A stretch of 64,000 nt of DNA from Chloroflexota bacterium (GTDB lineage: Bacteria > Chloroflexota > Anaerolineae > 4572-78 > J111): positions 1 through 64,000 of the forward strand of contig BOKF01000041.1 in NCBI GenBank assembly GCA_016860845.1. Reading direction: 5' to 3'. The notes below the pieces were generated by a model that saw only the letters and a program-made list of their open reading frames with translations, searched no databases and was not told the DNA's origin. This document shows positions 1,118-47,408 of the stretch, in pieces. Within the stretch, counting starts at the first letter, position 1. Each line of letters starts with the position of its first letter. The translations under genes and the position numbers were made by a program.

Positions 1118-1155
1118 GCCCCCGTAGCTCAGTGGATAGAGCAACTGCCTTCTAA
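1118..1155 (+). repeat. attL: 5' fragment of tRNA-Arg
   Basis: These 38 bases are identical to the first 38 bases of the intact tRNA at 47336 and stop just after the anticodon loop. The following bases diverge (ATAG against GCAG). In the excised circle this junction would be attP. There ATAGAGCAACT, eleven bases, then AGTTGCTCTAT give a perfect 11-bp inverted repeat around the crossover, as expected for a tyrosine recombinase core site. Confidence 0.92.
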
Positions 1156-1237
1156 ATAGTTGCTCTATGGGGGAAAGGCCGGGCCAGCGCACGTTTTTTG
1201 TTGTCTCGAATCTATTCGGTTGTTAAATTCGCGCCCA

Positions 1238-2787: not shown

Positions 2788-3075
2788 GTGGAAAAGGAGT
2801 ATGTGATCGTCCGCACCTACAGCGCCGGGGTTTTTGCCGGCGAACTCGAATCCCGCGAGGGGAAAGAGGTCACTTTGACCAACGCCCGGCGCATCTGGTA
2901 TTGGGCCGGAGCGGCCTCGCTCAGCGAATTGGCCCAGCGTGGCACATCAAAACCGAAACAATGCAAATTCCCGGTGGCCGTTGAAAAGGTGATCTTGACC
3001 GAAGCTATCGAGATTCTATCTGTCACCCCGCAGGCCCGTGAGAGCATAGCAGGAGTGCCGGTATGGACAGAGTAG
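2788..3075 (+). CDS. DUF6948-like phage protein
   Basis: 95 aa. GTG 2788 is preferred because AAAGGAG lies four bases before it; the in-frame ATG at 2773 would contain that site. The sequence has the look I associate with the DUF6948 family of small phage proteins: an N-terminal YVIVRTYSAGVFAGELE segment, then ARRIWYWAGAASLSELAQRG and a C-terminal EAIEILSVTPQARESIAGVPVW. No biochemical function is known to me. Its last 13 bases overlap the start of the Gly-rich ORF at 3063, so the two are translationally coupled. Family assignment is from memory of the motif pattern. Confidence 0.65.
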   Translation: MEKEYVIVRTYSAGVFAGELESREGKEVTLTNARRIWYWAGAASLSELAQRGTSKPKQCKFPVAVEKVILTEAIEILSVTPQARESIAGVPVWTE

Positions 3076-3365
3076 ACGACGGCTCCGGCTACGGCGACGG
3101 CGACGGCTCCGGCTCCGGCTCCGGCTCCGGCTACGGCTCCGGCTACGGCTACGGCGACGGCTACGGCGACGGCGACGGCTCCGGCGACGGCGACGGCTCC
3201 GGCTACGGCGACGGCTACGGCGACGGCGACGGCTCCGGCGACGGCTCCGGCTACGGCTCCGGCGACGGCGACGGCTCCGGCTACGGCTACGGCGACGGCG
3301 ACGGCTCCGGCTCCGGCTACGGCTACGGCTCCGGCGACGGCTACGGCTACGGCCAGGTTGCTTAA
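3063..3365 (+). CDS. Gly-Ser/Tyr/Asp dipeptide-repeat protein
   Basis: 100 aa, of which about 90 are strict Gly-X dipeptides with X only Ser (TCC), Tyr (TAC) or Asp (GAC). At DNA level it is a 6-bp repeat, GGC followed by TCC, TAC or GAC, from about 3078 to 3352. The ATG has a good site (GCAGGAG, seven bases). The ORF overlaps the DUF6948-like gene, and ends with GQVA. The chain should be disordered, acidic and sticky, a style seen in phase-separating or adhesive peptides. Because the repeat keeps one frame and ends in a normal stop, coding is more likely than a bare microsatellite. Function is unknown. Confidence 0.6.
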   Translation: MDRVDDGSGYGDGDGSGSGSGSGYGSGYGYGDGYGDGDGSGDGDGSGYGDGYGDGDGSGDGSGYGSGDGDGSGYGYGDGDGSGSGYGYGSGDGYGYGQVA

Positions 3366-3392
3366 ACCTCTCATAGAAAACAGGAGACCCCC

Positions 3393-3647
3393 ATGCCAAT
3401 CTTCAAAGAAATCAAAATTGAATACGGACTAACCTTCAGCTACGGCAAGACCTACGTCAAGCCGACGGTCGGCTTCACGGTCGAGCTGGCCGAGGGCGAT
3501 AATGCCGACGAGGTTATCGCGGCCACCCAGGCCACCGCCCGCCGGCTGGTCCACGAGGAAATTGACCGCGCCCTGGTCCTGGACGGCCAGGAGCCGCGCT
3601 TTGGTACGAGTACGAAGGCCGACCCATCAGATACCGTGGCGTTTTAA
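3393..3647 (+). CDS. Small conserved-looking phage protein
   Basis: 84 aa with a clear site (ACAGGAG) seven bases upstream. Residues 1-35 are strand-rich (KIEYGLTFSYGKTYVKPTVGFTVELAEGD), followed by a helix rich in Ala, Arg and acidic residues (ADEVIAATQATARRLVHEEIDRAL). I recall similar small proteins in phage early regions, with the pattern of one beta layer plus a long helix, but I know no function. It is followed by a strong hairpin at 3655. Confidence 0.65.
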   Translation: MPIFKEIKIEYGLTFSYGKTYVKPTVGFTVELAEGDNADEVIAATQATARRLVHEEIDRALVLDGQEPRFGTSTKADPSDTVAF

Positions 3648-6811: not shown

Positions 6812-7111
6812 ATGATGAAACGCAACCGTTTAGGCCACCCGACAGGGCCGACCATGCGTATCGGCGGCAAAGTGGTCAGCAGGATCACGGCCCGCTACGA
6901 CTACCGCTGCGCCGAATGCCTGGGCGCGCTGGAATACTGGAACGCCGGGGTGCGCTGCGCTACAAGCAGTGCACACCGGGGATTCGTTCACAAGAGCGAG
7001 GCGGCCCGGCTTCGGGCGGCCCAGCAGAAAAATATCAAGCAGTTGAGCGAGGTCTACGAGATCGTGGACGGAAAGGTGAGAATCAAGAATGAGCATCAAG
7101 GGACTGACTGA
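6812..7111 (+). CDS. Small zinc-ribbon protein
   Basis: 99 aa from ATG 6812, with TAGGAG directly upstream. YRCAECLGALEYWNAGVRC plus a later His (AHRGFVH) gives a CxxC-x12-C-H type site around residues 30-58. The C-terminal half is helical (SEAARLRAAQQKNIKQLSEVYEIV). It overlaps the RDF-like gene by 23 bases, so it is in the same operon, perhaps as a DNA-binding partner. Confidence 0.6.
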   Translation: MMKRNRLGHPTGPTMRIGGKVVSRITARYDYRCAECLGALEYWNAGVRCATSSAHRGFVHKSEAARLRAAQQKNIKQLSEVYEIVDGKVRIKNEHQGTD

Positions 7112-8336
7112 TTTAAGCGCGGCCTTCCCGCGCATCGGCGAACTGCGCAAGGGCGAGAAAAAGCCGGAAACCGGCAACCGCCCCGGCAAGGACCTGACCT
7201 ATTTTCGTTTTACCAGCGACGATTCGCTGGCTATAAAGAAATTCAACGAGGCGTACCCTGACCAGGAGGCGCTGCGCAACATCAACGTTTTTTTGCCGCA
7301 CCGGACGACCGACGAAAATATTGACAGTTGGATCGAGAAATGGGTCGCCGGCGGCCTGGTCTACCGCTCCGACGGTGAGACGCTGGTCCTGTGGCGCAAC
7401 GAAAAAGGCGGCTATTCGCTCGAACCCAGGCCGGACCCGTATCGGGAACTGGACGCAAACGGCAAGCGCAAGGACGGCAGCGGCCAGGTCGGACGGCTGG
7501 CGGTCATCATCCCCGAACTGGGCCGCTTCGCCACCGTGACCATCCTGACCACCAGCAAGCACGACATCATGAACCTGACCCGCCAACTGCGCAGTTACGA
7601 GGCCCTGCGCGGCGACCTGCGCGGGATCCCGTTCGTCGTCAAGCGCCGGATGTACAAAATCAGCACGCCCGGCCAGGGTGGCGAGCGGCTGCGGCGCGAA
7701 AAGTGGCTGCTCTCTATCGAGACTCAGCCGGCCTGGACCATGGCCCAACTGGGCGCAATGGAACGAGCCGCGCTGCCGGCGGGTGACATAGTGGAGGCGG
7801 AAGAGGCCGAATTTACCCTGCCTCAACTACCCGCCGGCATCTCTGACCCGTTTGACGAGCCAGAGGAGGAAGCGCCGCCGGAGCAGCCGACCCGCAAAAT
7901 CCTTTCACCGCGAGAATTAAAAGAGGCTATCGAAAAAAAGACGGCTAAATCCACCCTGCGCGACAGGGAGACCGGCGAGTTCCTGCCGGTCGCGCTCCAC
8001 CCCTTTGGTAGCAAAACGGCCAACCTGGTCAGCGCCAAATTCGAGGAGGCGTTCAGGCCCGATCCCAGGGCCGGCAAAATGTACCATGCCGCCCTGAAAT
8101 GGTTGACCGGCCAGGAGAGCGCCACCCAACTAACGGCGGCCCAGGCCGACGCGGTGCTTGACTGGCTACTGAACGGCAACAAAGAATTGAAGTGGAAAGC
8201 GGTTGTAACCATGCCCGCGCCGGAGGAAGCCCTGGCGGTTTACCAGGAGGCGGTCAGGACAGAGGTGGCGACCCAGAAGGAGGCCGGCCAGCAGGAACTA
8301 TTTGGCGAGCCGGTCCAGGACGAGATCGAATTTTAG
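7089..8336 (+). CDS. Gp3-like / recombination-directionality-factor family protein
   Basis: 415 aa. The opening MSIKGLTDLSAAFPRIGELRKG followed by PGKDLTYFRFT is what I recognise from the Gp3-like family (phage proteins annotated as recombination directionality factor-like or hydrolase/metal-binding). Residues 1-230 form that domain; an acidic, proline-rich linker (about 235-265) joins a helical C-terminal part. In phiC31, Gp3 turns a serine integrase toward excision. This element uses a tyrosine integrase, so the name need not give the role here. Family members also occur in early operons of phages without serine integrases, where a DNA-recombination or repair role is as likely. Confidence 0.65.
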   Translation: MSIKGLTDLSAAFPRIGELRKGEKKPETGNRPGKDLTYFRFTSDDSLAIKKFNEAYPDQEALRNINVFLPHRTTDENIDSWIEKWVAGGLVYRSDGETLVLWRNEKGGYSLEPRPDPYRELDANGKRKDGSGQVGRLAVIIPELGRFATVTILTTSKHDIMNLTRQLRSYEALRGDLRGIPFVVKRRMYKISTPGQGGERLRREKWLLSIETQPAWTMAQLGAMERAALPAGDIVEAEEAEFTLPQLPAGISDPFDEPEEEAPPEQPTRKILSPRELKEAIEKKTAKSTLRDRETGEFLPVALHPFGSKTANLVSAKFEEAFRPDPRAGKMYHAALKWLTGQESATQLTAAQADAVLDWLLNGNKELKWKAVVTMPAPEEALAVYQEAVRTEVATQKEAGQQELFGEPVQDEIEF

Positions 8337-8432: not shown

Positions 8433-9599
8433 GTGAGTGATTATTACAAACCCGACGACCCCAACCTGGTCTTTATCCAATCCCGGGCCGAGATAGACCT
8501 GGCCCTGGTCGAAGAATACGCCCAGATGATGCGCGACGGGGTCCAGTTCCACCCGGCCAGGGCCATCGCGGAGGGCTACACCATTTACGTCTTTGACGGC
8601 TTTCACCGGGGAGAGGCGGCCAAATTGGCCGGCCAGCTTCTTTTTGTTTCATCCCGGCCGGGGACCCGGGCCGAGGCGGAATGGGCCGCCCTGAACGCCA
8701 ACCAGGACCACGGCATGCGGCGAAGCAACGCCGACAAGCAAAAGATCGTCAAGCTGGCCCTGACCCACGAGTTTGGGGCCAAGCTGAGCGACCGGCAGAT
8801 CGCGCACCATTGCGGGGTGCATCATACGATGGTGGGCAGAATTAGGGGCGAGCTTGAAATGACTGGTGCATTGCACCAGTCAGATACCCGTGTCGGCGCC
8901 GATGGCCGGGAGATCAACACGGCCAACATCGGCAGCAGCCAGCCGGACTACGTCACCATCTGGGAATTGGGGCAGGGGGTCAAGGCGTGGGTCACAGCCA
9001 AATACAGCAGCTACCCCCGGGGCCAGATCGAGACCCTCCAGGCCATCAAGCAAAAGCGGGACGAAGGGCCGGCCCTGCTGGAGGAGCTGCTGACCGGCGA
9101 TGTCCTGCCCGGCCCGCGCCGCAAGGGCGATGTGGTCCAGGCGGTCAACAACGTCCTGGCCCAATTGGAGGAGCAGGAGCGGCAGGCGCTACGGCAGGCT
9201 CAGGACGTGGCCGCGCCGGCGCCGGAAGAATCTGGCGCAGAAGAGACCCAGCCGGACTGGCTCGAAGAGACCTCCGCGCCACCAGGCGGCCAGGTCGAAG
9301 CGCCGCTGGAACAGGAGGGTACTCCCCTACCCCCGGCCCCCATCCCCCAACCCCTGTCCCCCGCTCCTCCTCCCCCACCTCCCCCTCCGGCCCCAAAGCC
9401 GGCGGCGACGCCGGACTGGCACCTGCACATTACTCTGAAATCTACCGGCATCTGCCTGGTCACATTGGCCCAGGCCGGGCAAGCCGAGCCGGCGGCCAAC
9501 CTGGTCACGCACGTGGACCAGGTGCTCGACCAGGTCGAGCAGGCCCTGGGCCGGCACGTGCCCAACTTCAACGGCAAAGAAAAGGAGATGATTTACTAA
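8433..9599 (+). CDS. ParB-related protein of the PRTRC cassette
   Basis: 388 aa from GTG 8433 (AGGAGG seven bases before). Residues 10-90 form a ParB-type N-terminal domain with the motif DGFHRGEAAKLAG, followed by an HTH (LSDRQIAHHCGVHHTMVGRIRGEL, about 115-140). A long proline-rich linker (about 275-320) joins a C-terminal strand-rich domain (WHLHITLKSTGICLVTL) and a last helix. A ParB-related protein beside ThiF, ubiquitin-like, E2-like and JAB genes defines the PRTRC (ParB-Related, ThiF-Related Cassette) arrangement known mainly from plasmids. Its stop overlaps the next start (TAATG). A 23-bp palindrome lies inside the gene just after the HTH. Confidence 0.82.
   Translation: MSDYYKPDDPNLVFIQSRAEIDLALVEEYAQMMRDGVQFHPARAIAEGYTIYVFDGFHRGEAAKLAGQLLFVSSRPGTRAEAEWAALNANQDHGMRRSNADKQKIVKLALTHEFGAKLSDRQIAHHCGVHHTMVGRIRGELEMTGALHQSDTRVGADGREINTANIGSSQPDYVTIWELGQGVKAWVTAKYSSYPRGQIETLQAIKQKRDEGPALLEELLTGDVLPGPRRKGDVVQAVNNVLAQLEEQERQALRQAQDVAAPAPEESGAEETQPDWLEETSAPPGGQVEAPLEQEGTPLPPAPIPQPLSPAPPPPPPPPAPKPAATPDWHLHITLKSTGICLVTLAQAGQAEPAANLVTHVDQVLDQVEQALGRHVPNFNGKEKEMIY
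8860..8882. promoter_or_regulatory. 23-bp palindrome inside the ParB-like gene
   Basis: Arms TGACTGGTGCA and TGCACCAGTCA around one T. The whole 23 bp recurs exactly at 42113-42135, 33 kb away, in an unrelated gene on the other strand. Identity between two unrelated coding contexts argues for a DNA-level function, such as a parS-like site for the ParB-like protein. Confidence 0.6.
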
Positions 9600-10039
9600 T
9601 GGCTACCATTTACGAGCACAACGGCAAGGAACTCTTCAAGGACGAGGCGGACGCCTACGAGATCGAGGATATCCGCACCCATTACGCCCAATTCAACAAA
9701 GAGTTACTTTCGGCTACCTACACGGTCATTCCGGCCGAGAAGGAAGGCGAACCGCGCAAGGTCGTCTTCGCCAAGAAGACCGGGACGAAGGGAGGGCAAG
9801 ACCCGATCATCGCCGCACTGCTCTCCGTACCCCCGGCCCGGCCCGAAGCCTTTGGCCTGCTGGCCGAGCTGCTCTCGGACCCGGAGAAGCTGACCCCGGA
9901 AATATTGCTCTTTAAGGGCGCGGAAATCTGGGCCGCCGAGAATGACCTGTGGGAACTGGCCTCACGGAGCCATCTCGCCGTCCAGCGTGTTTTACAACTG
10001 AAGCCGGCCCCGGCCCCGTTCGTGCCGGCAGGATTCTAA
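9599..10039 (+). CDS. Ubiquitin-like protein (PRTRC system protein C type) with C-terminal extension
   Basis: 146 aa, ATG overlapping the ParB-like stop (TAATG). Residues 1-64 match the PRTRC protein C pattern, a beta-grasp (ubiquitin-like) fold: MATIYEHNGKELF, a helix around ADAYEIEDIRTHYAQFNKELLSA, then strands TYTVIPAEKEG and RKVVFAKKTGTKG. As I recall, other members stop at or near GTKG. Here the domain ends in Gly65-Gly66 and runs on into an 80-residue helical tail (QDPIIAALLSVPP... to PAGF). That is the layout of a precursor that a JAB peptidase trims to a free Gly-Gly end; the JAB gene lies two genes downstream. Processing is inference. Confidence 0.75.
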   Translation: MATIYEHNGKELFKDEADAYEIEDIRTHYAQFNKELLSATYTVIPAEKEGEPRKVVFAKKTGTKGGQDPIIAALLSVPPARPEAFGLLAELLSDPEKLTPEILLFKGAEIWAAENDLWELASRSHLAVQRVLQLKPAPAPFVPAGF

Positions 10040-10875
10040 TGCTCGCGCAAGCCGAGGGCCGGGTGTTACGCCCGGCCTCCCTCCTGCGGCCGCTGCGGCT
10101 GGATAAGGCGGCCAACCTGCTGGGCGACTTTGGCCGGCAGGCGCGGGTGCTGGCCCTGATCCAGACCAACTTCCCGGACGACTGGCAAGGAGAGTGGGCC
10201 GTCGAGGCTAAAGATTGGTTCGAGCACTACTGCGAATTCCTGCGGGCCGTCGAGGCTAAAGATTGGTTCGAGATAGACTGGCCCACTCTCCAGATGTGGG
10301 AGCAGAACTGGATGGAGACCGGCGACGACGAATGCGCCGGCTTTGACATCCCGAGCGACTATTTGCTGGGCATCCCGGTCTACTGCTTCGGCTGGGACGT
10401 GACCGAGCCGGAACTCGAAATGGGCGACCCGGCCACCATCCAGGATTACCCGGCCCTAGAGCTGCTGCGCTTCCTGGTCCTGGGCACGGAGAAGGGCCGG
10501 GTGGTGAGCGATTACATGGAACAAATGCTGGAGACGCTGGGCTTTTACCGCCTGGACTATTACAGCCGCAACGACGCCCGCGCCCGGCTGGAGCGGGCCG
10601 GCCGGCGGCAGAAGCCGCCCTGGAAGTGGCTGGCCGAGATGGCCGATTTTGCCTGCGACCGCTCCGGCAACATTATTCTGGACACGACGGTTGACAGCCA
10701 TGACCCGTGGCCGTGCCGGTGGACCTGGGACAAGGACCTGGAGACGATCAAGGGCGCCTGGGCCAGGGCGAAGCCCACAGTCGAGCATTTTAGAGAATTC
10801 GTGGATCGGGTGAACAGCAAGGACGATCTGGAGTACATCGCTGCTGTGGCGATGGGTAAACGGAGGCGAAAGTGA
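10039..10875 (+). CDS. Unknown acidic protein within the PRTRC cassette
   Basis: 278 aa from ATG 10039, overlapping the previous stop. Rich in Trp and acidic residues; helical. No family recognised; by position it could be a divergent PRTRC protein E or F or a substrate of the system. It contains an exact internal duplication: the peptide AVEAKDWFE occurs twice, 16 residues apart, because 29 bp are repeated with a 48-bp period (10196 and 10244). Cys residues at DDECAGF, PVYCFGWD and FACDR could form a metal site. Its stop overlaps the E2-like start at 10872. Confidence 0.65.
   Translation: MLAQAEGRVLRPASLLRPLRLDKAANLLGDFGRQARVLALIQTNFPDDWQGEWAVEAKDWFEHYCEFLRAVEAKDWFEIDWPTLQMWEQNWMETGDDECAGFDIPSDYLLGIPVYCFGWDVTEPELEMGDPATIQDYPALELLRFLVLGTEKGRVVSDYMEQMLETLGFYRLDYYSRNDARARLERAGRRQKPPWKWLAEMADFACDRSGNIILDTTVDSHDPWPCRWTWDKDLETIKGAWARAKPTVEHFREFVDRVNSKDDLEYIAAVAMGKRRRK
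10196..10272 (+). repeat. Tandem 29-bp exact duplication inside a gene
   Basis: 29 identical bases at 10196-10224 and 10244-10272 (period 48 bp), beginning GGGCCGTCGAGGC and ending GGTTCGAG. Frame is kept, and no silent difference has accumulated, so the event is recent. Confidence 0.85.
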
Positions 10876-11576
10876 ATCTACAAGACGACACGATAGACCT
10901 GGCCCTGCCGGTCTATCCCCAGTTTGAATTCAAGGAGGACGACTACGACAGCATCAAGTTGCGGCTTGACCTGTACGGCTCAATGATCGCCGCGACCAGG
11001 TTCAACGGCCAGGGCCGGCCCGTCGAGACCTATGCCCTGGACCCGGCCGACGTGGCCACGGCCCTGGCCAACGTTCCGCTGGTGTCCGGCCTTCTGCCGC
11101 GCCACTGCCTCTTCTGGGGTAAAGCCAATGGCGGCGAGCGGCTGGCCATCTTTGTCGAGCCAAAGGTCTGGCCGGTCAGTGTCGAGCGGGAAAAGGAGAC
11201 CTGGTACGTGCCGATGCCCGGCCTGGTTTTTATCGGCCAGGGCGGCAAATACACCCTGTACGCGGTCAAGGAGCAGTATTGGCCCGTGGCCGACACCCCG
11301 CTGTACCACGCCCCATGCCCCAACGTCTGGGGCAATACCGGCATCTGCCAGGGCAACGCGCCCTTCCCGGAGGCGCGCGCGGCCACGATCTGGCAGGCAG
11401 TCGAGGTCTTTTTTGCGAGCGGGTTCAACAACCACCTGGCCCAGGGCAAGAGCAAGGCGCACAAGGACAACATCCTGAAGATATGGCGCGCCCTGCACGA
11501 GGCCAATGCCGGCGAGTACCCGCTCGACGACCTGGTCGAGACCGGCCGGACTCTGGCCAAGGTGGTGACAGAATGA
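10872..11576 (+). CDS. E2-like conjugating protein (PRTRC system protein B type)
   Basis: 234 aa. PRTRC protein B is proposed to have an E2 (UBC)-like fold. The segment LYHAPCPNVWGNTGICQGN (residues 145-162) fits the region in which the family keeps its conserved cysteine; Cys159 in GICQGN is my candidate for the thioester cysteine, Cys149 the alternative. The helix after it (FPEARAATIWQAVEVFFASGFNNHL) ends with a conserved-looking NNHL. It sits between an unknown protein and the JAB peptidase, overlapping each by four bases, so stoichiometric co-expression is expected. Regulation would come from the cassette's first promoter. Confidence 0.8.
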   Translation: MNLQDDTIDLALPVYPQFEFKEDDYDSIKLRLDLYGSMIAATRFNGQGRPVETYALDPADVATALANVPLVSGLLPRHCLFWGKANGGERLAIFVEPKVWPVSVEREKETWYVPMPGLVFIGQGGKYTLYAVKEQYWPVADTPLYHAPCPNVWGNTGICQGNAPFPEARAATIWQAVEVFFASGFNNHLAQGKSKAHKDNILKIWRALHEANAGEYPLDDLVETGRTLAKVVTE

Positions 11577-12199
11577 AGCCGCTGCCCAACCCGGTTGATT
11601 ATTATATCTACACCGGTCAGGAAATCCCGGCGCCCACCCTGTACGCCTACCTCATGGCCGGCAACGGCGTGATCAAGCTGGCCGAGACGGCGCATTTCCG
11701 GGCCGCGGCGCCGGTCTATCCCTACTGGGCCGCCGTGGCCGGCCTGCCCGACTACCCGCCGGGGATCGAGCTAAAAGTCCCCAAAATCCCGGCCCGCTGG
11801 CTGTATCTGGTTCTGGACCACGCCCGTAACTGCGGCCGGCATATCGAGCAGATGTACCATTTCCACTGGTGGCCGGTCTCGTCCGGCCCCGGCTTTGCTC
11901 CGCTGGGCCGGGGGGAGTGGCGGGTGAGCATCCCCCGGCAGCAAGCCAGCGCCGGGCGGGTCAGTTACCACGGCGGCGGCGATCCGACCATCGTGCTGGA
12001 TCTGCACTCCCATCACGCGATGTTGTCGTTCTTTTCATCAACCGACAACGGCGACGAACAGGGGCTGAGGTTTTACGCGGTGATCGGCCGGATCTATGAC
12101 CAGCCGGAGCTGCGGCTGCGGGTGGGGGTCTACGGCGATTGGCTGGAACTGGACCCGCTGGACTTATTTGACGGCCTGGGGCCGTTTGTGGAGGCGTGA
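11573..12199 (+). CDS. JAMM/JAB metallopeptidase (PRTRC system protein A type)
   Basis: 208 aa from ATG 11573 (ATGA overlap). The JAMM motif is complete: His145-Ser-His147, seven residues, Ser155, two residues, Asp158 (HSHHAMLSFFSSTD). It predicts a zinc-dependent deubiquitinase-like peptidase that cleaves after Gly-Gly. Preceding strands (DPTIVLDLHSH) and following strand (LRFYAVIGRI) match the JAB fold. The upstream ubiquitin-like protein with an internal Gly-Gly is the natural substrate. It overlaps the tiny SH3-like gene by one base. Tail phages also use JAB proteins in tail assembly, but those are fused to NlpC domains and lie beside tail genes, unlike here. Confidence 0.85.
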   Translation: MKPLPNPVDYYIYTGQEIPAPTLYAYLMAGNGVIKLAETAHFRAAAPVYPYWAAVAGLPDYPPGIELKVPKIPARWLYLVLDHARNCGRHIEQMYHFHWWPVSSGPGFAPLGRGEWRVSIPRQQASAGRVSYHGGGDPTIVLDLHSHHAMLSFFSSTDNGDEQGLRFYAVIGRIYDQPELRLRVGVYGDWLELDPLDLFDGLGPFVEA

Positions 12200-12345
12200 T
12201 GTTTCAGGTCGGCGACCGGGTTTACTGGCAAGGCTGGATCGCTTATATCCTGGCCTTTCGCTGCTCCGGGAGCCGCGTTGTCATCAGGCTGGTCATCGGC
12301 CAGACCAAAACTGTTTCGGTAGAAAATATTTCGAGGTACCCTTAA
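12199..12345 (+). CDS. 48-residue SH3/KOW-like small protein
   Basis: ATG 12199 to TAA 12345, overlapping the neighbours on both sides (TGATG and TAATG). The sequence MFQVGDRVYWQGWIAYILAF then a strand-rich second half ending SVENISRYP has the FxxGDxVxW opening typical of small SH3-like barrels. Perfect coupling on both sides makes it a real gene of the cassette. It could be an adaptor or an RNA/DNA-binding barrel; no such member is part of the standard PRTRC set that I know. Confidence 0.65.
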   Translation: MFQVGDRVYWQGWIAYILAFRCSGSRVVIRLVIGQTKTVSVENISRYP

Positions 12346-13418
12346 TGAAACCCATCAAAACCCACCGCCTGGAAATCGGCGCGCCCAGGCGCGTGACCAT
12401 CATCCTGGCCGGCTGCGGCGGGACCGGTTCCTATGCCGCGCTGCACCTGGCCCAACTGGCCTACGCGGCCCGCGGCCACGAGATCGAGGTCAGCCTGGTC
12501 TTTGTGGACCCGGACACCGTCGAGCGCAAGAACGTGGCCCGGCAGAATTTCGCCCCGGCCGAGGTCGGCCAGCCCAAAGCCGTGACCCTGGCCCGCCGTT
12601 ATTCGCTGGCTCTGGGCCTGGCCATTACGCCCATCGCCGGCAAGTTCGAGCGGGCCGTCCTGAACCATTACCGGCAGCAGACCGGCTGGAACGAGGATGG
12701 CCTGACGGTCGTTGCCGGCTGCGTGGACAACATCGCGGCCCGGCAGGACATCCGGGCGGCCCTCCTGCCCGACATCGAGGACGGCTATTCGTGGCAAAAA
12801 GACCTCTTCTGGCTCGACGCCGGCAATCACTACGCCCACGGCCAGGTCCTGCTGGGCAACTCGACCTACCCGCGGCCGCTCCTGTCGCCGCTGGGCTTTG
12901 CCTACGGCCTGCCACTGCCCTCAGTCCAGGAGCCGGGCCTCGTGGCCCCGGAAGCGCCGGAAGCCGGGCCGGCCCTCTCCTGCGCCGACCTGGTTGAACG
13001 GGACGTGCAGGCCCGAACGATCAACAAGATGATGGCGGCCTGGATTGACGTGTTCTGCGAGCGGCTGATTGTCTCGCGCGATTTGCGCATCATGGGGGTC
13101 CGGCTCGACCAGCGCGGCGGCGCGGCGGCCGGCATCCCTATCGCCGGCGGTGTTGTGATGGACCCGGCGAAGGGCAAGATCAGCCACCCGGATAGCTATC
13201 CCGCCGGCTACCCGGCCAATGAAGATGACGAGGAAGATGACGACACACTGACCGGCCCGATGTGCCCGGAATGCGGCGGCGACATCATCCGGGGCCGGGA
13301 CATCATCGGCGGCGCGGAGACCGAGATCTATTTCTGTCTTCACTGCAACTGGCAGATGACCGCCGAGGAGTTCAATGAGATACAGGCCGGCGAGGCCCTG
13401 GGCCGGTTGATGGAGTGA
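12345..13418 (+). CDS. E1-like ThiF/MoeB adenylyltransferase with C-terminal zinc ribbon
   Basis: 357 aa from ATG 12345 (TAATG). Nucleotide-binding motif GCGGTG at 23-28, the acidic loop VDPDTVERKNVARQNF at 54-69 and GCVDN at 125-129 are E1/ThiF hallmarks. It would adenylate the Gly-Gly end of the ubiquitin-like protein. Cys213 (LSCADLVERD) is a candidate acceptor cysteine. Beyond the usual PRTRC ThiF core is an acidic linker (EDDEEDDD) and a four-cysteine zinc ribbon: Cys307, Cys310, Cys331, Cys334 (CPECGG ... CLHCNW). This extra domain might recruit the E2 or the target. Last gene of the cassette; a promoter for the next unit starts 21 bases after its stop. Confidence 0.85.
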   Translation: MKPIKTHRLEIGAPRRVTIILAGCGGTGSYAALHLAQLAYAARGHEIEVSLVFVDPDTVERKNVARQNFAPAEVGQPKAVTLARRYSLALGLAITPIAGKFERAVLNHYRQQTGWNEDGLTVVAGCVDNIAARQDIRAALLPDIEDGYSWQKDLFWLDAGNHYAHGQVLLGNSTYPRPLLSPLGFAYGLPLPSVQEPGLVAPEAPEAGPALSCADLVERDVQARTINKMMAAWIDVFCERLIVSRDLRIMGVRLDQRGGAAAGIPIAGGVVMDPAKGKISHPDSYPAGYPANEDDEEDDDTLTGPMCPECGGDIIRGRDIIGGAETEIYFCLHCNWQMTAEEFNEIQAGEALGRLME

Positions 13419-18703: not shown

Positions 18704-20302
18704 ATGGCCAATTTATGGAGCAGGCTTATGGCAGCATACAAAGCGTTCAGAGAGCCGTCGCTGATCAGCGACCCACTGGAGGCCGGCAATTTCACCGACT
18801 TCGAGGCCCGCCGATTCCGTTATGCCCTCTATTGGGCCTTTTACGAGAACGACATTTATCGCAACATCCAGGACTGGGCCACGGGCTACAAAACCCAGTA
18901 CGGCCTATATCGCTACATCCGGGGCGTTTACAACCCGGCTTACCGCATCGGCGAATTTTGGAAAAGCCACCTGATGGGCGGGGCGCTGGACCGGGAGGCC
19001 GGCCCGATCGGGGCGCTGCCCATCGAGACAGCCACCGAGGCGCTGCGCCCGGCGATTGCCCAGCTCTGGAGGTGGTCCAATTGGGCCGTCAATAAAGATG
19101 TCTTCACCATGCACGGCACGATCTTTGGCGACGTGGCCTTGCGAATAACGGACGACGACGAGCGAGGCAAGGTCTATCTGCAACTTGTCCATCCGGGCAT
19201 TATCAGGGAGGCCGAGCGCGACCCTTTCGGCAACGTTAAGGGCTATCTCTTTCAAGAGAAGCGGCCCGACCCAACCGGCAGCAAGCGGGCGGTTGAGTAT
19301 GCCGAGGAGTGCCGGCGTGACGGCGATATGGTCGTTTTCAAGACCTATCTCAACGGCAAGCCCTACGCCTGGTCGGAGCAAGGCGAGGAGTGGCAGGAGC
19401 CGTACGGCTTCGTGCCGCTGGTCGTCGTCCAGCACAATAATGTCGGCCTGGAGTGGGGCTGGTCGGAGTTCCACCCGGACCGGGAGAAAATTCACGGCGT
19501 AGACGACCTGGCCAGCAAGCTGCACGACCAGATCAGGAAGTTAGTAGACGCGCCCTGGCTGTTTGCCGGCGTCTCCAAGAGCAGCTCAACACCGACGACC
19601 GAAATGACCCAGCTCTCAGGTGAGGCGGCGGCCAAGCGGCCCCAGCCAGGCCGGGAGGAAATCCCGGCGCTGTACGGCCCGCTGGGAGCCACGGCCACGC
19701 CGCTGGTGGCCTCGCTGGACATCGCGGCCACTTCGGCGGAGATCAAGGCGATGATCGCCGAACTGGAGCGCGACTACCCGGAGCTAAAGGTGGACATCAT
19801 GCGCGCCTCCGGCGAGGCCAGCGGGCGGGCGCTGCGCATCGCCCAGGGGCCGGCCGAAGACAAGGTTAACCAGCGCCGGGCCAATTACGACGATGCCCTG
19901 GTCCGCGCCCAGCAGATGGCCGTGGCCATCGGCGGCTTTCGGGGCTATGACGGCTTTGAGGGCTTCGACCTGGACAGCTATGCCGGCGGCGCGCTCGATC
20001 ATTCGATTGGCGAGCGGCCGGTCTTTGCCGAGGACCCGCTCGACGACGGCGAGATTGAAAAGGCGTTCTGGGAGGCGGCCAACAGCGCCATCCGGGCCGG
20101 CATCCCGCTGCCGGTCTACCTGAAGCGCAAAGGCTGGACCGACGAAGAGATCGCCGCCCTGACTGACGACCCGGAATGGCAGCAGCGGGCCGAGATGTCG
20201 CGCCTGGCCCTCCAGGGCCAGCGGATGATGAGCCAGATTGGCGAAGGCCGGGGGCAGGAGGGCGACGTTAACGATTCGGGCGGCCAGGTAGATAATGCCT
20301 GA
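18704..20302 (+). CDS. Portal protein
   Basis: 532 aa, typical length for siphovirus portals. Identified from place (directly after the large terminase and before a MuF-like gene) and from the sequence style: an N-terminal AFYENDIYRNIQDWATGYKTQYGLYRYIRG segment, the mid-region GVDDLASKLHDQIRKLVDAPWLFAG and the stem-like helix TSAEIKAMIAELERDYPELKVDIMRASGEASGRALRIAQGP. Forms the dodecameric ring through which DNA enters. Overlaps the next gene by 8 bases. Confidence 0.88.
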   Translation: MANLWSRLMAAYKAFREPSLISDPLEAGNFTDFEARRFRYALYWAFYENDIYRNIQDWATGYKTQYGLYRYIRGVYNPAYRIGEFWKSHLMGGALDREAGPIGALPIETATEALRPAIAQLWRWSNWAVNKDVFTMHGTIFGDVALRITDDDERGKVYLQLVHPGIIREAERDPFGNVKGYLFQEKRPDPTGSKRAVEYAEECRRDGDMVVFKTYLNGKPYAWSEQGEEWQEPYGFVPLVVVQHNNVGLEWGWSEFHPDREKIHGVDDLASKLHDQIRKLVDAPWLFAGVSKSSSTPTTEMTQLSGEAAAKRPQPGREEIPALYGPLGATATPLVASLDIAATSAEIKAMIAELERDYPELKVDIMRASGEASGRALRIAQGPAEDKVNQRRANYDDALVRAQQMAVAIGGFRGYDGFEGFDLDSYAGGALDHSIGERPVFAEDPLDDGEIEKAFWEAANSAIRAGIPLPVYLKRKGWTDEEIAALTDDPEWQQRAEMSRLALQGQRMMSQIGEGRGQEGDVNDSGGQVDNA

Positions 20303-36756: not shown

Positions 36757-38565
36757 GTGACAATAGCGGCTGTTTCAGGACAGGCAGGCGGCAATAATGC
36801 CAACAATGCAACCAGTGTCAGCCGGGCATTTGGTTCAAACGTCCAGGCCGGCAGCCTGATCGTTGTCGTGGGGATGAAATATTCCCCATCATCCGATGCG
36901 TTTGTCGCCGGAGACTGTACTAAATCGGCCGGTACGGCCACACTTGGCACGATCAGTCTGGACAGGCAGGTGCAGGTTGATACCTCTGATGCCGATTTTG
37001 CCTGTGTTGGCATCTGGTCAGCCGTTGTGACCGGTGGCGGCTCGCTGACCATGCAGGTCGGCGGGGCGGTGTCCGGTTCTTACCTACTAATCGCCACTCA
37101 CGAATTTACCGGAAATTGGGGCAGCAACCGGGCCGAGACGGGCAATTCTGGCTCTAATGCCTCTAATGGAGTATCGCCTGCTGTTTCCGGCAACGCCACC
37201 TCTGCCGGGGCGGCGCTGTTTGTCGGTGGCTTGAACGTCAATAGCCTGGCCGGGGTAACGATCACGCCCGATGGCGCCTTTACCCAGATTTATGAGGACG
37301 AGGCCAGCACCGACGATAATGGATCGGCGATTTTCCGTATTGTCTCAACGGGTACGACCGATCAGGCCGAATGGACAATTGCCTCTGGGACGTGGTATGG
37401 CTGGGCGGCGGCGGTAGAGGTTTATAAGGAGGAAGCCGGGGCCACGAACCTCACGGTACAGGACGCGGCCCAGGCCCACGCAGTAGACAGCCCGGCCCTG
37501 ACCCAGGTCCACACTCTGGCCGTGCAGGACAGCGCCCACGCCCACGCCGCCGATAATGTGACCCTGAGTACGGCCATAGATTTGGCCGTGCAGGAGGCGA
37601 CCCACGGGCACACGGCTGACGGCCCCACGCTGACCCAGGTCCATATCCTGATAGTCAGCGACGCCCTGCACGCGCACCTGGTCGAACACCTGGTTATCAG
37701 CCTGGTCTTTGGCCTGCTCGTGCAGGAGGCCCTGCACAATCACCTGGTAGACGGCCCGGCCCTGACCCAGGATCACAGTCTTGTCGGTCAGGATAGCACC
37801 CACGCCCACACAGTGGACAATGTGGCCGTGGGGGTAGACCTGGCCGTACAGGACGCAACTCACGGCCACGCCGCCGATAATGTGGCGTTGACCCAGGGCC
37901 ACGAACTGGCGGTTCAGGACGCTACCCACGCCCACGCGGTAGATAGTCCCACGCTGACCCAGGGCCACGAACTCGCGGTTCAGGACGCTACCCACGCCCA
38001 CGCCGCCGATAGCCCGGCCCTGACCCAACTTCACGAGCTGGCGGCGGCTGATGCCCTGCACGCCCACAGCGCCGATAATCTCGACCTGACTTCCGGCCTT
38101 ATTGCCGAGGATACGGTTCACGCTCACGCGGTGGATAATGTAGCCTTGACCCAGGTCCACGAACTCGCGGCGGCTGACGCTCTCCACGCGCACAACGCCG
38201 ATAATGTAGCCTTGACCCAGGTCCACGAACTCGCGGTTCAGGACGCGCTTCACAGCCACGCTGCCGACAATCTCACTCTATTTGTTGGCCTAACCGTACA
38301 GGACACGCTTCACGGACACACGGCTGACGGCCCCACGCTGACCCAGGAGCACGGCCTGGCCGTGCAGGAGGCCAGCCACGGTCATACGGCAGACAACATA
38401 GTACTGGCCCTGGACACAACAGACCTGGTCGTCCAGGATGCCACACACGGACACACGGCGGATATATTGATCCTGGTGATAATGGCCTTGAGGCGGGGGG
38501 CCATCACCGGGCCGGATAGCACCGGCGCCATCACCGGGCCGGATGGGGCCGGGGCAATCAGCTAG
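36757..38565 (+). CDS. Fibre protein with 16 His-x-His repeats
   Basis: 602 aa. Residues 1-225 form a beta domain (PKD-less, jelly-roll style). Then 16 imperfect repeats of 20-22 residues follow, of the form LAVQDATHAHAADNVALTQVHE, nearly all with His-(Ala/Gly/Asn/Ser)-His. In T4 long tail fibre gp37, HxH motifs coordinate iron inside a trimeric needle, so an analogous metal-threaded trimeric needle is plausible here. The C-terminal ends RRGAITGPDSTGAITGPDGAGAIS. DNA repeats run with about 60-66-bp period (37443-38480). Confidence 0.72.
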   Translation: MTIAAVSGQAGGNNANNATSVSRAFGSNVQAGSLIVVVGMKYSPSSDAFVAGDCTKSAGTATLGTISLDRQVQVDTSDADFACVGIWSAVVTGGGSLTMQVGGAVSGSYLLIATHEFTGNWGSNRAETGNSGSNASNGVSPAVSGNATSAGAALFVGGLNVNSLAGVTITPDGAFTQIYEDEASTDDNGSAIFRIVSTGTTDQAEWTIASGTWYGWAAAVEVYKEEAGATNLTVQDAAQAHAVDSPALTQVHTLAVQDSAHAHAADNVTLSTAIDLAVQEATHGHTADGPTLTQVHILIVSDALHAHLVEHLVISLVFGLLVQEALHNHLVDGPALTQDHSLVGQDSTHAHTVDNVAVGVDLAVQDATHGHAADNVALTQGHELAVQDATHAHAVDSPTLTQGHELAVQDATHAHAADSPALTQLHELAAADALHAHSADNLDLTSGLIAEDTVHAHAVDNVALTQVHELAAADALHAHNADNVALTQVHELAVQDALHSHAADNLTLFVGLTVQDTLHGHTADGPTLTQEHGLAVQEASHGHTADNIVLALDTTDLVVQDATHGHTADILILVIMALRRGAITGPDSTGAITGPDGAGAIS

Positions 38566-42092: not shown

Positions 42093-42364
42093 AGCCCCTC
42101 CTCGCCGCCAGATGACTGGTGCATTGCACCAGTCAAAACCGGCTGTATTGTGTGGGCCATCTGGCTGAGCAGGAGAATAGCCTGCTCGACATCGTCCGGT
42201 TCAAACGTGGCCGGGTGGGGCTGGCCGGTCAAGAGATACTCCAGGGCGCGGCCGGCCAGGTGCAGGGCGGCCCTGGGGGTGAGCCGCTCCGAAGTCGGGA
42301 TCTCCAAACGGCGGTGTGATTGTTGGCCGTTTCCGGCCGGTTGGGGTATATTTTGTTTTGCCAC
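42089..42364 (-). CDS. Small helical protein
   Basis: 91 aa, GTG start (CAAGGAGATTACC before it). Central helix SERLTPRAALHLAGRALEYLL and a second, DDVEQAILLLSQMAHTI. Its C-terminal codons (TGAMHQS) are the minus-strand reading of the second copy of the 23-bp palindrome at 42113. First gene of the distal minus operon, behind a 227-bp intergenic region with a LexA-like box. Confidence 0.5.
   Translation of the reverse strand: MAKQNIPQPAGNGQQSHRRLEIPTSERLTPRAALHLAGRALEYLLTGQPHPATFEPDDVEQAILLLSQMAHTIQPVLTGAMHQSSGGEEGL
42113..42135. promoter_or_regulatory. 23-bp palindrome, second copy
   Basis: Identical to 8860-8882 (arms TGACTGGTGCA and TGCACCAGTCA about one T). Confidence 0.6.
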
Positions 42365-44357: not shown

Positions 44358-45260
44358 TTAATGCTCATTATCGAGCAGGGTTAATTGTTTGATAACATGG
44401 GCGTCCGGGAGGCTGGTCACGGACGGACGGTTGTAGCCGTTGACCTGGGGGATAGGCGTCGCGCCCCAGTCGGGGGTACGGCGGGAGCGGATGCGGACCT
44501 GCTCCCAGTAATCGCCGGCCCAGACGACGAACTCGCCCGGCAGGAAGCGGCGGAGCCGGCTGAAGCTGCGATAGCCGGGCGGCAGGTATTTCTGGATGGC
44601 CAGGTAGTCTGACTCCAGGCTGAGCTTGCCAAACAGGCGGATGTTGCACGGGCTGATAACGGCCTTGCTGATTTCCTGCGGGCGCTGGGTGGCCAGCGCG
44701 GCCAGCAGGCCCAGGCTGCGGCCCTCGCTCATGACCAGGTCGAGGATAGCCAGGCTTTCAACCTGGTCGCGGGTGGCCCGGCCCTGGGGGGCAAAGTTGT
44801 GGGCCTCGTCCACAAGGAGCAGAACTGGCCGGGGGTCAAGCTGGGCCAGCTCGTAGACGGCGGTGATCAGGGCGGTAAAGGTCTCGACGGCCAGGCCGCG
44901 CTTCTGGCCGCTCAGGTCGAGGATGAGGGCGTAGTGATCGCGCAGGAGATGGACGGCGAAGCGGCGCGGGTGGTTAAGCACCTCGGACCGGTCGAGATGG
45001 GCGCGGCGGGCCGGGAGGGGATGGTTGGGCAGACCCAGCCGGAGCACGTCGTCACCCAGTTCGCCCAGGCTGGACAGCTCGCCCTTGACATCCACGACCA
45101 GGAAGGGCAAGCCGGCGGCATGGGCCTCCTCGGCCAGGACGGCCAGGAGGGTGCTTTTGCCGGCGCCGGGATTGCCCAGGGCCGCGAGGCGGAAGCCGTC
45201 CTGGGCATAGGGCGGGCCGGCCAAATTAATACGGTAAGTCTCGGATAAATTCAGGTACAT
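44358..45260 (-). CDS. HerA/FtsK-like P-loop ATPase
   Basis: 300 aa, AAAGGAAGTGTC before ATG. Walker A GNPGAGKST at 29-37, Walker B VLLLVDEAHNF at 146-155 (Asp151-Glu152), and a sensor-like ATQRPQEISKAVISPCNIRLFGK. This is the HerA/VirB4/DUF87 pattern: a hexameric DNA translocase. It is smaller than typical HerA (about 500 aa) and lacks the N-terminal HAS barrel. Beside the DEDDh exonuclease it resembles HerA-nuclease pairs that resect or pump DNA. Downstream of the initiator gene on the same strand. Confidence 0.82.
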   Translation of the reverse strand: MYLNLSETYRINLAGPPYAQDGFRLAALGNPGAGKSTLLAVLAEEAHAAGLPFLVVDVKGELSSLGELGDDVLRLGLPNHPLPARRAHLDRSEVLNHPRRFAVHLLRDHYALILDLSGQKRGLAVETFTALITAVYELAQLDPRPVLLLVDEAHNFAPQGRATRDQVESLAILDLVMSEGRSLGLLAALATQRPQEISKAVISPCNIRLFGKLSLESDYLAIQKYLPPGYRSFSRLRRFLPGEFVVWAGDYWEQVRIRSRRTPDWGATPIPQVNGYNRPSVTSLPDAHVIKQLTLLDNEH

Positions 45261-45284: not shown

Positions 45285-45473
45285 GCGATTTAAGAAATAA
45301 CCCTCTTCTTTAGTTGTTTATAAGTAATTAAGAGTCTTTAAAGAATCAATTTCACCAGTGAAATTAGATACAATTTCACCAGTGAAATTAGATACAATTT
45401 CACCAGTGAAATTAGAGACCCTCTCTGTTTTCACCAGTGAAATTAGAGGCCCTCTCTGTTTTCACCAGTGAAA
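45285..45473. other. Probable replication origin: AT-rich tract and iterons
   Basis: Five copies of TTTCACCAGTGAAA at 45350, 45374, 45398, 45429 and 45460, spaced 24, 24, 31 and 31 bp, each followed by TTAGA. Each core is itself an inverted repeat (TTTCAC, two bases, GTGAAA). The last copy lies inside the 3' end of the initiator gene and encodes NFTGEN. A 65-bp AT-rich segment (45285-45349) adjoins them and could be the unwinding element. Confidence 0.78.
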
Positions 45474-46174
45474 TTAGAGGCCCTTAATTTTGCCTCATCT
45501 TCGGGCGTCAGCGGGTCGTCCAGGCGTATCCGCCAGATTGTTTTATCATTCACGGTGCCGCTCCTGGTCGACGAGTAGCGCCGCTTAGTTTCCGAGCGAA
45601 GGATGAACCTGGCGATCAGGACTTTTCGTTCCGGCTCCTGGGGGTTCAGTAACCGCCATGCTTTCAGTCCGCTGACGCCGATGCTCTCTCCCAGGTCCTT
45701 GTAGGTGGCCTCGAAGGTGTCCCGTTTGATGCCGGTCTCTTTGTTCCAGTAGCAGCGGGTCCGCATTTCCCAGATCAGGAGCCACAGCTCCGGCCCCAGG
45801 AGCGGTAGCCATTTTTTGTGGTAGTAGCGCGACGCATAGTGCTGCAAGTCGGGCTGGACGATCTCGTTGTAGGCATCGCGGTACGTGCCGCTAAAAAACA
45901 ATTCCGGCTGGCCGGCCTCGGACGGCTCGCCGGGATCAAGCTCAAAGACGATCTCCAACTCGCGCCCGGTGACCCGGGCGACGGCCTGCTCGACCTGGGG
46001 CCGGAGGCGGTGTTCCAGCCAGTCGAGAGCATAAGGGCCGGGGGCCAGTACCTTGAGCGAGCCGTTTTGCTGGATGGCCCGCGTAGCCTGGAGGCAGGTG
46101 TCGAAGGTGGCGCGGGTGATGCTGCCCTTGAGGTCGGCCAGGACATCCGGCCACAGTGAAGGTGATGATGACAA
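45443..46174 (-). CDS. Replication initiator with DnaA N-terminal-like domain
   Basis: 243 aa, TTG start behind ATAGGAGGTAATT. Residues 7-75 resemble the DnaA N-terminal (helicase-loading) domain: LWPDVLADLKGSITRATFDTCLQATRAIQQNGSLKVLAPGPYALDWLEHRLRPQVEQAVARVTGRELEIVFEL. After a linker is a winged-helix-like domain (TYRDAYNEIVQPDLQHYASRYYHKKWLPLLGPELWLLIWEMRTRCYW ... FEATYKDLGESIGVSGLKAWRLLN), which would bind the iterons. No AAA+ module, so it is not DnaA. Iterons begin in its last codons, as in lambda O, which supports an initiator role. Divergent from the integrase leader. Confidence 0.72.
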   Translation of the reverse strand: MSSSPSLWPDVLADLKGSITRATFDTCLQATRAIQQNGSLKVLAPGPYALDWLEHRLRPQVEQAVARVTGRELEIVFELDPGEPSEAGQPELFFSGTYRDAYNEIVQPDLQHYASRYYHKKWLPLLGPELWLLIWEMRTRCYWNKETGIKRDTFEATYKDLGESIGVSGLKAWRLLNPQEPERKVLIARFILRSETKRRYSSTRSGTVNDKTIWRIRLDDPLTPEDEAKLRASNFTGENREGL

Positions 46175-46331: not shown

Positions 46332-47282
46332 ATGGAACTTGTTTTTGTTGTCGCCGAAGACGACATGAGCTGGCACATGGACCTCTTTCTCCGAGTCAAG
46401 CGGGCGGCCCGGCAGCCGCGCACGGTCGAATGGTACGAAGCCGCGCTGCGATCCTTTCAGGACGTGGCTGGCGGCGAGTGGCCGCCCGGGCCGGCCCACC
46501 TGCTGGCTTTCCTGGAAACGTTCGAGATACGGAAGTTATCCGACGCCAGCCGGAACACCTATTTCCGGGCGGTGCGGGCCTGGCTCAACTGGCTGTACCG
46601 GAACCGCTTTATCCAGCACAACCCGCTTGATTTTATTGACGGCCCCGGCGCGGCCCGGCTGCTGCCCAAGGCTCCGCCGCCGGCCGACGTGGCCCGGCTG
46701 CTGGCGACGGTCGAGGCGAGAGCCGATAGCTGGCAGGATTGGCGCGACCTGGCCCTGTTCAGCCTGGCCCTGGACACCGGCGCGCGGATCGGCGAGCTGG
46801 CCGCGATGGACCTGGGCGATATTGACCTGGGCCAGCAGGAGATCATGGTCTACGGGGCCAAGGACAGGACCGAGCGCGTGGTGGAGTTTGACGATTCCGC
46901 CGCGCGGGACCTGGGGCGCTGGCTGCGACAGCGGGCGGCCCTGAAGCCGGCGCGGACGCTGCGGCGTCTTTTTCTGAGCAACTACCGGGCCATGGGGCTG
47001 CGGCCGCTGACTCACTGGGGCATGCGCCTGCGCTTGAAGTTTTGGCAGATGCGGGCGGGAATTGCGCCGTTCCGTTTCCACGGCTTTCGCCACGCCTATG
47101 CCATTTACAGCCTGCGCAACAACGCCAACCTGCTGGACATCAAGGACCAGATGGGCCACGCCTCGATCAAAACGACGGCGATCTACCTGGAGGTGGTCAA
47201 CAACAACCGCAAGGAGCGGCACCGCCAGACCAGCCCGCGCAAGAACCTGCCCCGGATTGACGGGGAGCAGACTTTGTGCTAA
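46332..47282 (+). CDS. int: Tyrosine integrase of the prophage
   Basis: 316 aa, AGGGGTGGAAA before ATG. Catalytic set complete: Arg152 (DTGARIGEL), Lys178, His250 and Arg253 (FHGFRHAY), His276 (QMGHASIKT), Tyr285 (AIYLEV). An N-terminal SAM-like core-binding domain covers residues 20-105. It recombines attP with the tRNA-Arg gene between the D-arm and anticodon loop. It lies directly upstream of attR, as the older integrase at 159 does for attL. About half of the residues match that protein, so both elements belong to one integrase lineage using the same target. Confidence 0.95.
   Translation: MELVFVVAEDDMSWHMDLFLRVKRAARQPRTVEWYEAALRSFQDVAGGEWPPGPAHLLAFLETFEIRKLSDASRNTYFRAVRAWLNWLYRNRFIQHNPLDFIDGPGAARLLPKAPPPADVARLLATVEARADSWQDWRDLALFSLALDTGARIGELAAMDLGDIDLGQQEIMVYGAKDRTERVVEFDDSAARDLGRWLRQRAALKPARTLRRLFLSNYRAMGLRPLTHWGMRLRLKFWQMRAGIAPFRFHGFRHAYAIYSLRNNANLLDIKDQMGHASIKTTAIYLEVVNNNRKERHRQTSPRKNLPRIDGEQTLC

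Positions 47283-47335: not shown

Positions 47336-47408
<73 letters not shown>

Follow-up and report, generated by a model that had tools for sequence, protein, structure and literature searches.

What use would a bacteriophage have for a full set of ubiquitin-type conjugation genes, and why does the ubiquitin-like protein (Ubl) of such a set run on for 81 residues beyond its glycine motif, GTKG? The question is raised by positions 8433-13418 of the window, i.e., the whole 64,000-nucleotide stretch of Chloroflexota DNA that was analysed. Seven plus-strand genes lie here within an integrated prophage, and their predicted order, strand and coordinates were borne out, successive genes overlapping by 1, 1, 4, 4, 1 and 1 bases, so that every overlap is of 1 or 4 bases. 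The cassette, which is real and intact, is related to PRTRC operons but divergent, and its kind is already known. Its most informative feature is the extension after GTKG, which the original prediction did not mention, and its interest lies in the putative Ubl-tail precursor and in the match of its end to the presence of a peptidase, more than in its viral location. We put at about 0.5 the probability that this is a prophage-borne, divergent PRTRC-type Ubl conjugation cassette in which a Ubl-tail precursor is matured by a JAB metallopeptidase and conjugated via E1 and E2, with targets in the complex of a ParB-like protein. The features of the cassette are as follows (L numbers denote related loci).

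8433-9599, plus strand: ParB-like protein of 388 amino acids with a proline-rich linker (PHROG 1033, ParB-like, 1.7e-7)
9411-9596, plus strand: C-terminal module of the ParB-like protein, about 57-62 amino acids, at the position of PRTRC E and found in relatives
9599-9793, plus strand: Ubl domain of protein C (gene 9599-10039), residues 1-65, ending GTKG
9794-10036, plus strand: 81-residue extension of protein C, Gly66 followed by a helical tail of type T and ending PAGF; residues 69-133 are predicted to be mostly helical
10039-10875, plus strand: protein of 278 amino acids at the position of PRTRC F, conserved between the Ubl and E2-like genes
10872-11576, plus strand: E2-like protein (PRTRC B, TIGR03737; Prok-E2_D) with Asn151 and Cys159
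11573-12199, plus strand: JAB/JAMM metallopeptidase (PRTRC A, TIGR03735; Prok-JAB) with Glu92, His145, His147, Ser155 and Asp158
12199-12345, plus strand: open reading frame (ORF) of 48 amino acids without family match in NCBIfam, Pfam or PHROG, missing between the JAB and ThiF genes of L001 and L003
12345-13418, plus strand: E1/ThiF-like protein of 357 amino acids (TIGR03736; Pfam ThiF)
13263-13346, plus strand: zinc-ribbon-like CxxC..CxxC at the C-terminus of the ThiF-like protein; of 82 loci, the window, L001, L003 and L010 alone have two CxxC

Residues beyond the glycine and the JAB peptidase

The Ubl domain is a beta-grasp in the predicted model, and the junction between Ubl and tail falls in a low-confidence linker of that model. 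Nine relatives of protein C were retrieved from about 5.8 billion proteins, all with the Ubl kept up to G-x-KG and with tails that vary. Some carry the same helical tail, P0007 carries a whole DUF551 (68/68 positions), P0011 shows a zinc-binding pattern, and others have further kinds of tail; the zinc-binding pattern is also seen in L001. Homologues of the Ubl protein are found at 77-81% identity; against plasmids, tblastn with the window Ubl gave no convincing relative, the single match being at E 10. The position after the terminal glycine is occupied by 13 different residues across 52 tails, which fits a cut recognised from the Ubl side.

A first hint of a link to the peptidase came from two JAB-less plasmids, L004 and L006, in which protein C ends exactly at the glycine. 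The test set consisted of 94 loci with an E2-like gene (duplicate fetches removed), from which 15 with a truncated contig or no recognisable Ubl were excluded, leaving 79. Residues after the terminal glycine were present in 59/66 JAB-intact loci and in 1/13 JAB-lacking loci (Fisher p 1.2e-8, with phylogeny ignored; the 79 include near-identical loci and loci sharing a genome, and the value does not represent independent evidence). The extension is of 1-5 residues in 15 of the 59 loci and of 13 or more in 44. L060, L062, L042 and L099 were counted as extended despite an odd motif (GTKA, GSLG or GQNG), and L056 is a run-on ORF; for L094-L096 and L103-L111 the state was read from the C gene as annotated or as placed by position, with L112 standing in for L095. 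The sole JAB-lacking locus with an extension, L068, is decayed, having lost the JAMM motif, the E1 GxGGxG and the E2 motif. In this locus, from a cyanobacterial sample (L068:4475-7369), the tail is split from the Ubl, JAB runs into ThiF, the catalytic motifs being absent, and no E2 motif was found.

Absence of the peptidase gene was also followed beyond the fetched loci. When 14 whole genomes or plasmid records were searched for PRTRC A, it was found in 0/12 of the JAB-less and 2/2 of the JAB-bearing records; the 12 cover 8/13 of the JAB-lacking test loci, and for plasmids the search covered the plasmid record alone. The neatest contrast is found among sister loci, where L050, with JAB, ends GTKGARA and L046 and L051, without it, end GTKG, the Ubls of L050 and L051 being identical at 45/63 positions; the contrast comes from a single starred clade in a single phylum sample.

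All ORFs were searched with a profile of the common tail, T. Fusion after the glycine was seen in 21 loci, 21/21 of which have JAB, and T forms a separate ORF in 18 loci, 15 with JAB and three without; the 18 include weak matches in L030 and L031 (about 20 bits) and a partial one in L001. In the Acidobacteria group the Ubl was seen in 11/12 loci with a separate T and ends 1-4 residues past QHKG or QYKG. L100 has a truncated JAB and a Ubl ending GPKG, with T as the next ORF and no ThiF found, and L023, without JAB, has a Ubl ending GYKG and T elsewhere in the cassette. The window tail itself scores 8.8 bits only with the T profile; its near relative L003 scores 58 bits and aligns with the window tail throughout. 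As T is fused in some loci and separate in others it is probably a functional partner of the Ubl, and these arrangements suggest that the two can work unlinked.

Several observations weigh against maturation by JAB. Seven JAB loci have no extension (L030, L041, L092, L098, L103, L104, and L106), and the rule that JAB implies a tail was rejected on these 7/66. A quick tree built from E2-like proteins, with 6 JAB changes and 10 tail changes, contains only four independent well-supported pairs, in which the tail goes the same way in a mean of 2.8 and the opposite way in 0 (p 0.25); the tree-corrected test is underpowered. Chance as the source of the link is thus rejected by the Fisher test without phylogeny, while p is 0.25 with it. 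Lastly, L060 and L062 have Ala for Gly, the Ubl ending GTKA, with a full tail and with JAB present. It is possible that the Ubl of these two loci is no longer cut, by analogy with the Gly-to-Ala ubiquitin fusion in Giardia mentioned in a passage of PMC11354881.

The tail-free JAB loci and the two loci with alanine would fit better if the tail were a permanent second domain, with the Ubl unconjugated in a non-covalent complex and JAB, E1 and E2 acting on something else. The tail end GF, kept in about ten relatives as for a functional domain, points the same way. This alternative is nevertheless considered unlikely, as the tails of close relatives differ (DUF551 or a zinc-binding pattern in place of the helical tail) with the Ubl kept to KG, as T stands as an ORF of its own in 18 loci, and as 12/13 JAB-lacking loci end at the glycine.

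Relationship to PRTRC operons

The relationship to PRTRC proposed in the original prediction holds for part of the cassette. Of the NCBIfam models TIGR03734-TIGR03742, three are matched significantly, i.e., PRTRC B (TIGR03737; E-value 8.4e-26, 90.7 bits, curated cut-off 131.45), PRTRC A (TIGR03735; 5.1e-11, 42.5 bits, cut-off 101.8), and PRTRC ThiF (TIGR03736; 1.7e-31, 109.4 bits, cut-off 144.75), and PRTRC C (TIGR03738) is matched marginally by the Ubl (E 0.018, 15.2 bits, cut-off 45.95), so that every score stays below its curated cut-off. The ParB (TIGR03734), E and F models of NCBIfam gave no match to the cassette proteins; the ParB of L003 matches TIGR03734 at 1.3e-11, also under the cut-off. 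In Pfam, Prok-E2_D (5e-28), Prok-JAB (7e-6), and ThiF (3e-13) were above gathering scores and the Ubl had no match; among six Ubl homologues scored against Prok_Ub, L032 was above the cut-off and L001 below it. Gene order adds to the case, as the complete plasmid order is ParB-E-C-F-B-A-ThiF and the window cassette follows the same order, and the comparison with related elements found syntenic cassettes in the viral contigs L001 and L003. The predicted folds (beta-grasp for the Ubl, UBC for the E2-like protein) are those anticipated and give modest support. Foldseek against the PDB gave no match at E 0.001 for either model; the best alignments of the E2-like model are with chains of E2/UEV entries, and FUBI and MoaD are among the structural matches.

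The catalytic residues named in the original prediction are all present. In the E2-like protein Cys159 lies within GICQGN and Asn151 eight residues earlier, both being invariant in 9 and in 15 aligned sequences, and the predicted model has a UBC fold with the putative catalytic Cys and Asn. The JAB protein fits the JAMM pattern E-x(n)-HxH-x7-S-xx-D, with Glu92, His145, His147, Ser155, and Asp158 invariant in seven aligned JABs. The E2 motif was seen in 81/85 loci and the JAMM motif in 69/71. The ThiF-like protein holds GCGGTG and VDPDTVE, and its Ser212-Cys213 is invariant in an 8-row alignment.

The first gene is more difficult to place. Beyond its PHROG match the ParB-like protein had no ParB match in NCBIfam or Pfam. 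The module of about 57 residues that follows its proline-rich linker is fused to a DUF3102 N-terminus (a domain of unknown function) in L001 and to a true ParB in L003, and recurs in the pre-Ubl gene of the cyanobacterial plasmids L007 and L089. By position only, it is taken as the counterpart of PRTRC E; profile comparison did not support this, as hhalign with plasmid E gave no match, the plasmid profiles being shallow. The genes at 10039 and 12199 had been regarded as non-standard members. For 10039 this was rejected, since its family, with 76 ORFs across the loci fetched (a count that includes duplicates), has kept the F position in the window, L001, L003, and L007, even if hhalign profile comparison with five plasmid PRTRC F proteins, again with shallow plasmid profiles, gave no match. 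The gene contains a tandem 48-nucleotide near-repeat, 75% identical, at 10171-10266. For 12199, with its absence from L001 and L003, the description stands, and the ORF looks incidental.

The window cassette thus resembles PRTRC in gene order, ParB-(E)-C-F-B-A-ThiF, in its Ubl, E2, JAB, and E1 families and in its residence on a mobile element, and differs in lying on an integrated phage, in scoring below all cut-offs, in having no separate E gene, in an F protein unrelated by profile and in the zinc ribbon of its ThiF protein. The PRTRC core is, by our own identification, the type 6d operon of Iyer 2006, for which a passage of PMC1779556 lists five products: the Ubl, small, standalone and ending in glycine; a helical protein; and proteins of the E2-like, JAB and E1 types. 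As in type 6d, the window has adjacent Ubl, E2-like, JAB, and E1-like genes plus one further protein; its Ubl, with 81 residues beyond GTKG, is neither standalone nor terminated by the glycine. The same passage states that the type 6d E2-like protein lacks the classical His and conserves a downstream His. The window motif lacks the classical His, and the downstream His is present in the window (FNNHL) and absent from L001 (FNRDL) and L007 (FNKDL). Judged by titles and abstract openings, a literature search on PRTRC gave no article on PRTRC in phages or on PRTRC biochemistry.

A PRTRC-type cassette in a phage is rare, not unique. Burkholderia phage BgVeeders33 (OK665841), a complete phage, has a full cassette in which the Ubl is likewise extended past GTKG, by 62 residues. 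It differs from the window in that its C (4e-31), E (3e-18), and F (8e-30) exceed the PRTRC cut-offs, in its separate E gene and in a tail without significant T match; its genes are annotated as hypothetical except ThiF. Among 50,697 phage records two match the window E2, BgVeeders33 being one of them, and seven match ThiF, and 176/72,556 plasmid records match the E2-like protein; the virus counts are lower bounds, as pattern scans reach close relatives only. In IMG/VR seven distinct contigs carry a ThiF relative, six of the seven also with an E2-like gene in the fetched stretch; L002 and L003 look nearly identical in that stretch, and with the E2 as sole query IMG/VR gave no relative. The cassette of L001 lies near terminase and portal genes. 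The B model (E <=0.001; some matches weak) was found in 31/400 genomes of Chloroflexota, 10/247 of Acidobacteria and 5/292 of the phylum of the cyanobacterial locus. To be set beside the view that PRTRC sets are known chiefly from plasmids are the genomes of these three phyla, the IMG/VR contigs and BgVeeders33. Related cassettes occur in Chloroflexota (Anaerolineae) genomes, and the nearest relatives on the E2 tree are L003 (viral) and L010 (Anaerolineales), which makes a host in that phylum probable. In L009 (MT835919), a human-gut phage scaffold, E2-, JAB-, and ThiF-like genes lie amid genes resembling, on visual inspection, those of DNA replication, and no Ubl was found.

A putative maturation and conjugation route

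The active-site residues, the gene order, the beta-grasp Ubl model, the residues beyond GTKG, and their association with JAB, all of them shown by computation, can be accommodated in one scheme. The Ubl would first appear in inactive form, as a precursor in which Ubl-GTKG is fused to the helical tail. JAB would cleave after Gly65, or perhaps Gly66, to give a Ubl with a free glycine and a tail protein. The ThiF-like E1 would adenylate the freed glycine and hand the Ubl to Cys159 of the E2-like protein, from which it would be attached to target proteins; JAB may also be able to remove it. The tail would be a partner protein produced 1:1 with the Ubl, like the ubiquitin-fused ribosomal proteins. 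In the least certain step the targets would belong to the complex of the ParB-like protein, and the cassette would serve maintenance or control of phage DNA.

Cutting of a Ubl precursor by JAB is plausible here because a passage of PMC11354881 reports that BilA is cut by BilC before use. The Bil system (BilABCD) combines, like the window, Ubl, E1, E2, and JAB, and in a PDB sequence search with the JAB profile BilC came out best, at a weak E of 0.59. As described in that passage, Bil is a four-gene operon with a tandem-Ubl BilA and a CEHH E2 motif; the window cassette has one Ubl domain and GICQGN, and thus neither of the two Bil hallmarks. The organisation is also like that of the ubiquitin-ribosomal protein and FUBI-eS30 precursors of eukaryotes, where the C-terminal glycine of the Ubl is fused to a partner and a peptidase frees it. 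There the cutters are deubiquitinases such as USP36, and a common origin is not claimed. The TAPI and TAPK proteins of phage lambda similarly comprise a Ubl with a C-terminal domain and a JAB-NlpC protein, but these are tail-assembly genes; a passage of PMC1779556 predicts that TAPI is cut at the glycine and names no E1 or E2.

It is tempting to extend the scheme to phages and mobile elements of Chloroflexota, cyanobacteria, Acidobacteria, and Nitrospirota, where, within a complete Ubl pathway, the Ubl would be born fused to an exchangeable partner (T, DUF551, zinc-binding or another tail), JAB would mature and recycle it, and loss of the peptidase would force a split or a trim at the glycine. 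Bacteria and their viruses would then have their own equivalent of the ubiquitin-ribosomal protein precursors. This wider proposal is tentative, at somewhat less than even odds.

What the conjugation would be for is a separate matter. A ParB-type gene leads the cassette in the window, in L003 and in many of the plasmid stretches examined, and this frequent company speaks for a part in maintaining or controlling the replicon; a role in DNA maintenance is weakly favoured over one in defence. Ubl conjugation serves anti-phage systems, and the main rival for the role is counter-defence or superinfection exclusion, the phage tagging proteins of the host or of rival phages in the way that the host is served by Bil or by CBASS Cap2/Cap3. 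In line with this, the ThiF domain is touched by PADLOC E1-E2 (Cap2-type) models, at best with 9.4e-8, the plasmid cassettes L005, L007, L089, L092, L100, L101, and L103 have DNA methylase or type I restriction-modification genes nearby, and L090, L104, and L107 have toxin-antitoxin genes. We find such a role improbable, given the leading ParB-type genes and given that the other five of the six cassette proteins scanned had no PADLOC match; an antiphage annotation was rejected on the latter ground.

A sulfur-carrier system of the ThiS/MoaD type feeding a modification, with the E2-like protein as an accessory, would account for the match of ThiF/MoeB models to the E1 domain and for MoaD among the structural matches. 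Sulfur carriers end GG, however, and the Ubl tip is KG; a cysteine-bearing protein of E2 fold and usually a JAB stand alongside, and the ThiF match aside no sulfur gene was found among the seven in NCBIfam, Pfam, or PHROG, all of which makes this reading very unlikely. That the cassette is a decaying plasmid passenger without function in the phage, as its sporadic distribution (2/50,697 phage records with an E2 match) might suggest, is hardly credible with active-site residues and overlaps all intact, syntenic cassettes in two viral contigs and Ubl homologues of high identity.

If the conjugation scheme with JAB maturation is correct, PRTRC, which is little studied, would gain a concrete, testable biochemistry, with a peptidase, the exact site of its cut and a thioester relay, in a phage small enough to be studied in its entirety, and the great length variation of C proteins would be explained. 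It would also mean that a virus runs its own ubiquitin-like conjugation, in a bacterial parallel to the ubiquitin precursor fusions. After trypsin, the remnant of a Ubl that ends in GTKG would be one Gly, and the proposed search for Gly-Gly remnants may therefore miss the product.

The prophage and its surroundings

The prophage is 46.2 kb long and integrated at tRNA-Arg, and the cassette lies between a gene for a Gp3-like recombination directionality factor and the packaging genes.

1118-1160, plus strand: attL, a 43-nucleotide copy of the 5' part of tRNA-Arg, in direct repeat with 47336-47378 (95%)
7089-8336, plus strand: gene resembling the Gp3-like recombination directionality factor, upstream of the cassette (Pfam PF18897, 5.7e-24)
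46332-47282, plus strand: tyrosine integrase of the prophage, beside the tRNA (PHROG 1, 1.1e-38)
47336-47378, plus strand: attR, the other 43-nucleotide copy of the direct repeat (95%), inside tRNA-Arg(TCT) 47336-47409

By PHROG the element contains small and large terminase, head morphogenesis, major head, and integrase genes and a weak tape-measure match. The claim of a complete siphovirus is plausible on these genes and the att repeats, with the reservation that 18704-20302, where the portal would be expected, has no PHROG match. A second tyrosine integrase (159-1043, Pfam 5e-24) lies just outside attL and is perhaps part of a neighbouring or older element. Directly to the right of the tRNA-Arg attachment site, 47730-50591 encodes a large PKD/DUF11/Kelch protein.

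An identical 23-bp palindrome, TGACTGGTGCANTGCACCAGTCA, with 11-bp arms, is found at 8860-8882, within the ParB-like gene, and at 42113-42135, and none was expected from shuffled sequences. It is possibly an operator or a parS-like site; a family-wide parS was rejected with 0 exact matches in 112 other loci. On the minus strand, 44358-45260 is an AAA/HerA-like ATPase gene that matches the PADLOC HerA and mad8 models, and upstream of it, at 45350-45490, lie five iterons of 24-31 nucleotides with the inner palindrome TTTCACCAGTGAAA. Further repeats are the dense 12/18-nucleotide direct repeats at 3025-3407, with 18 copies in register, the 66-nucleotide repeats at 37404-38463 within the long ORF 36757-38565 and, in the host flank, 126-nucleotide periodic repeats at 59177-62612 that by eye look YD/RHS-like.

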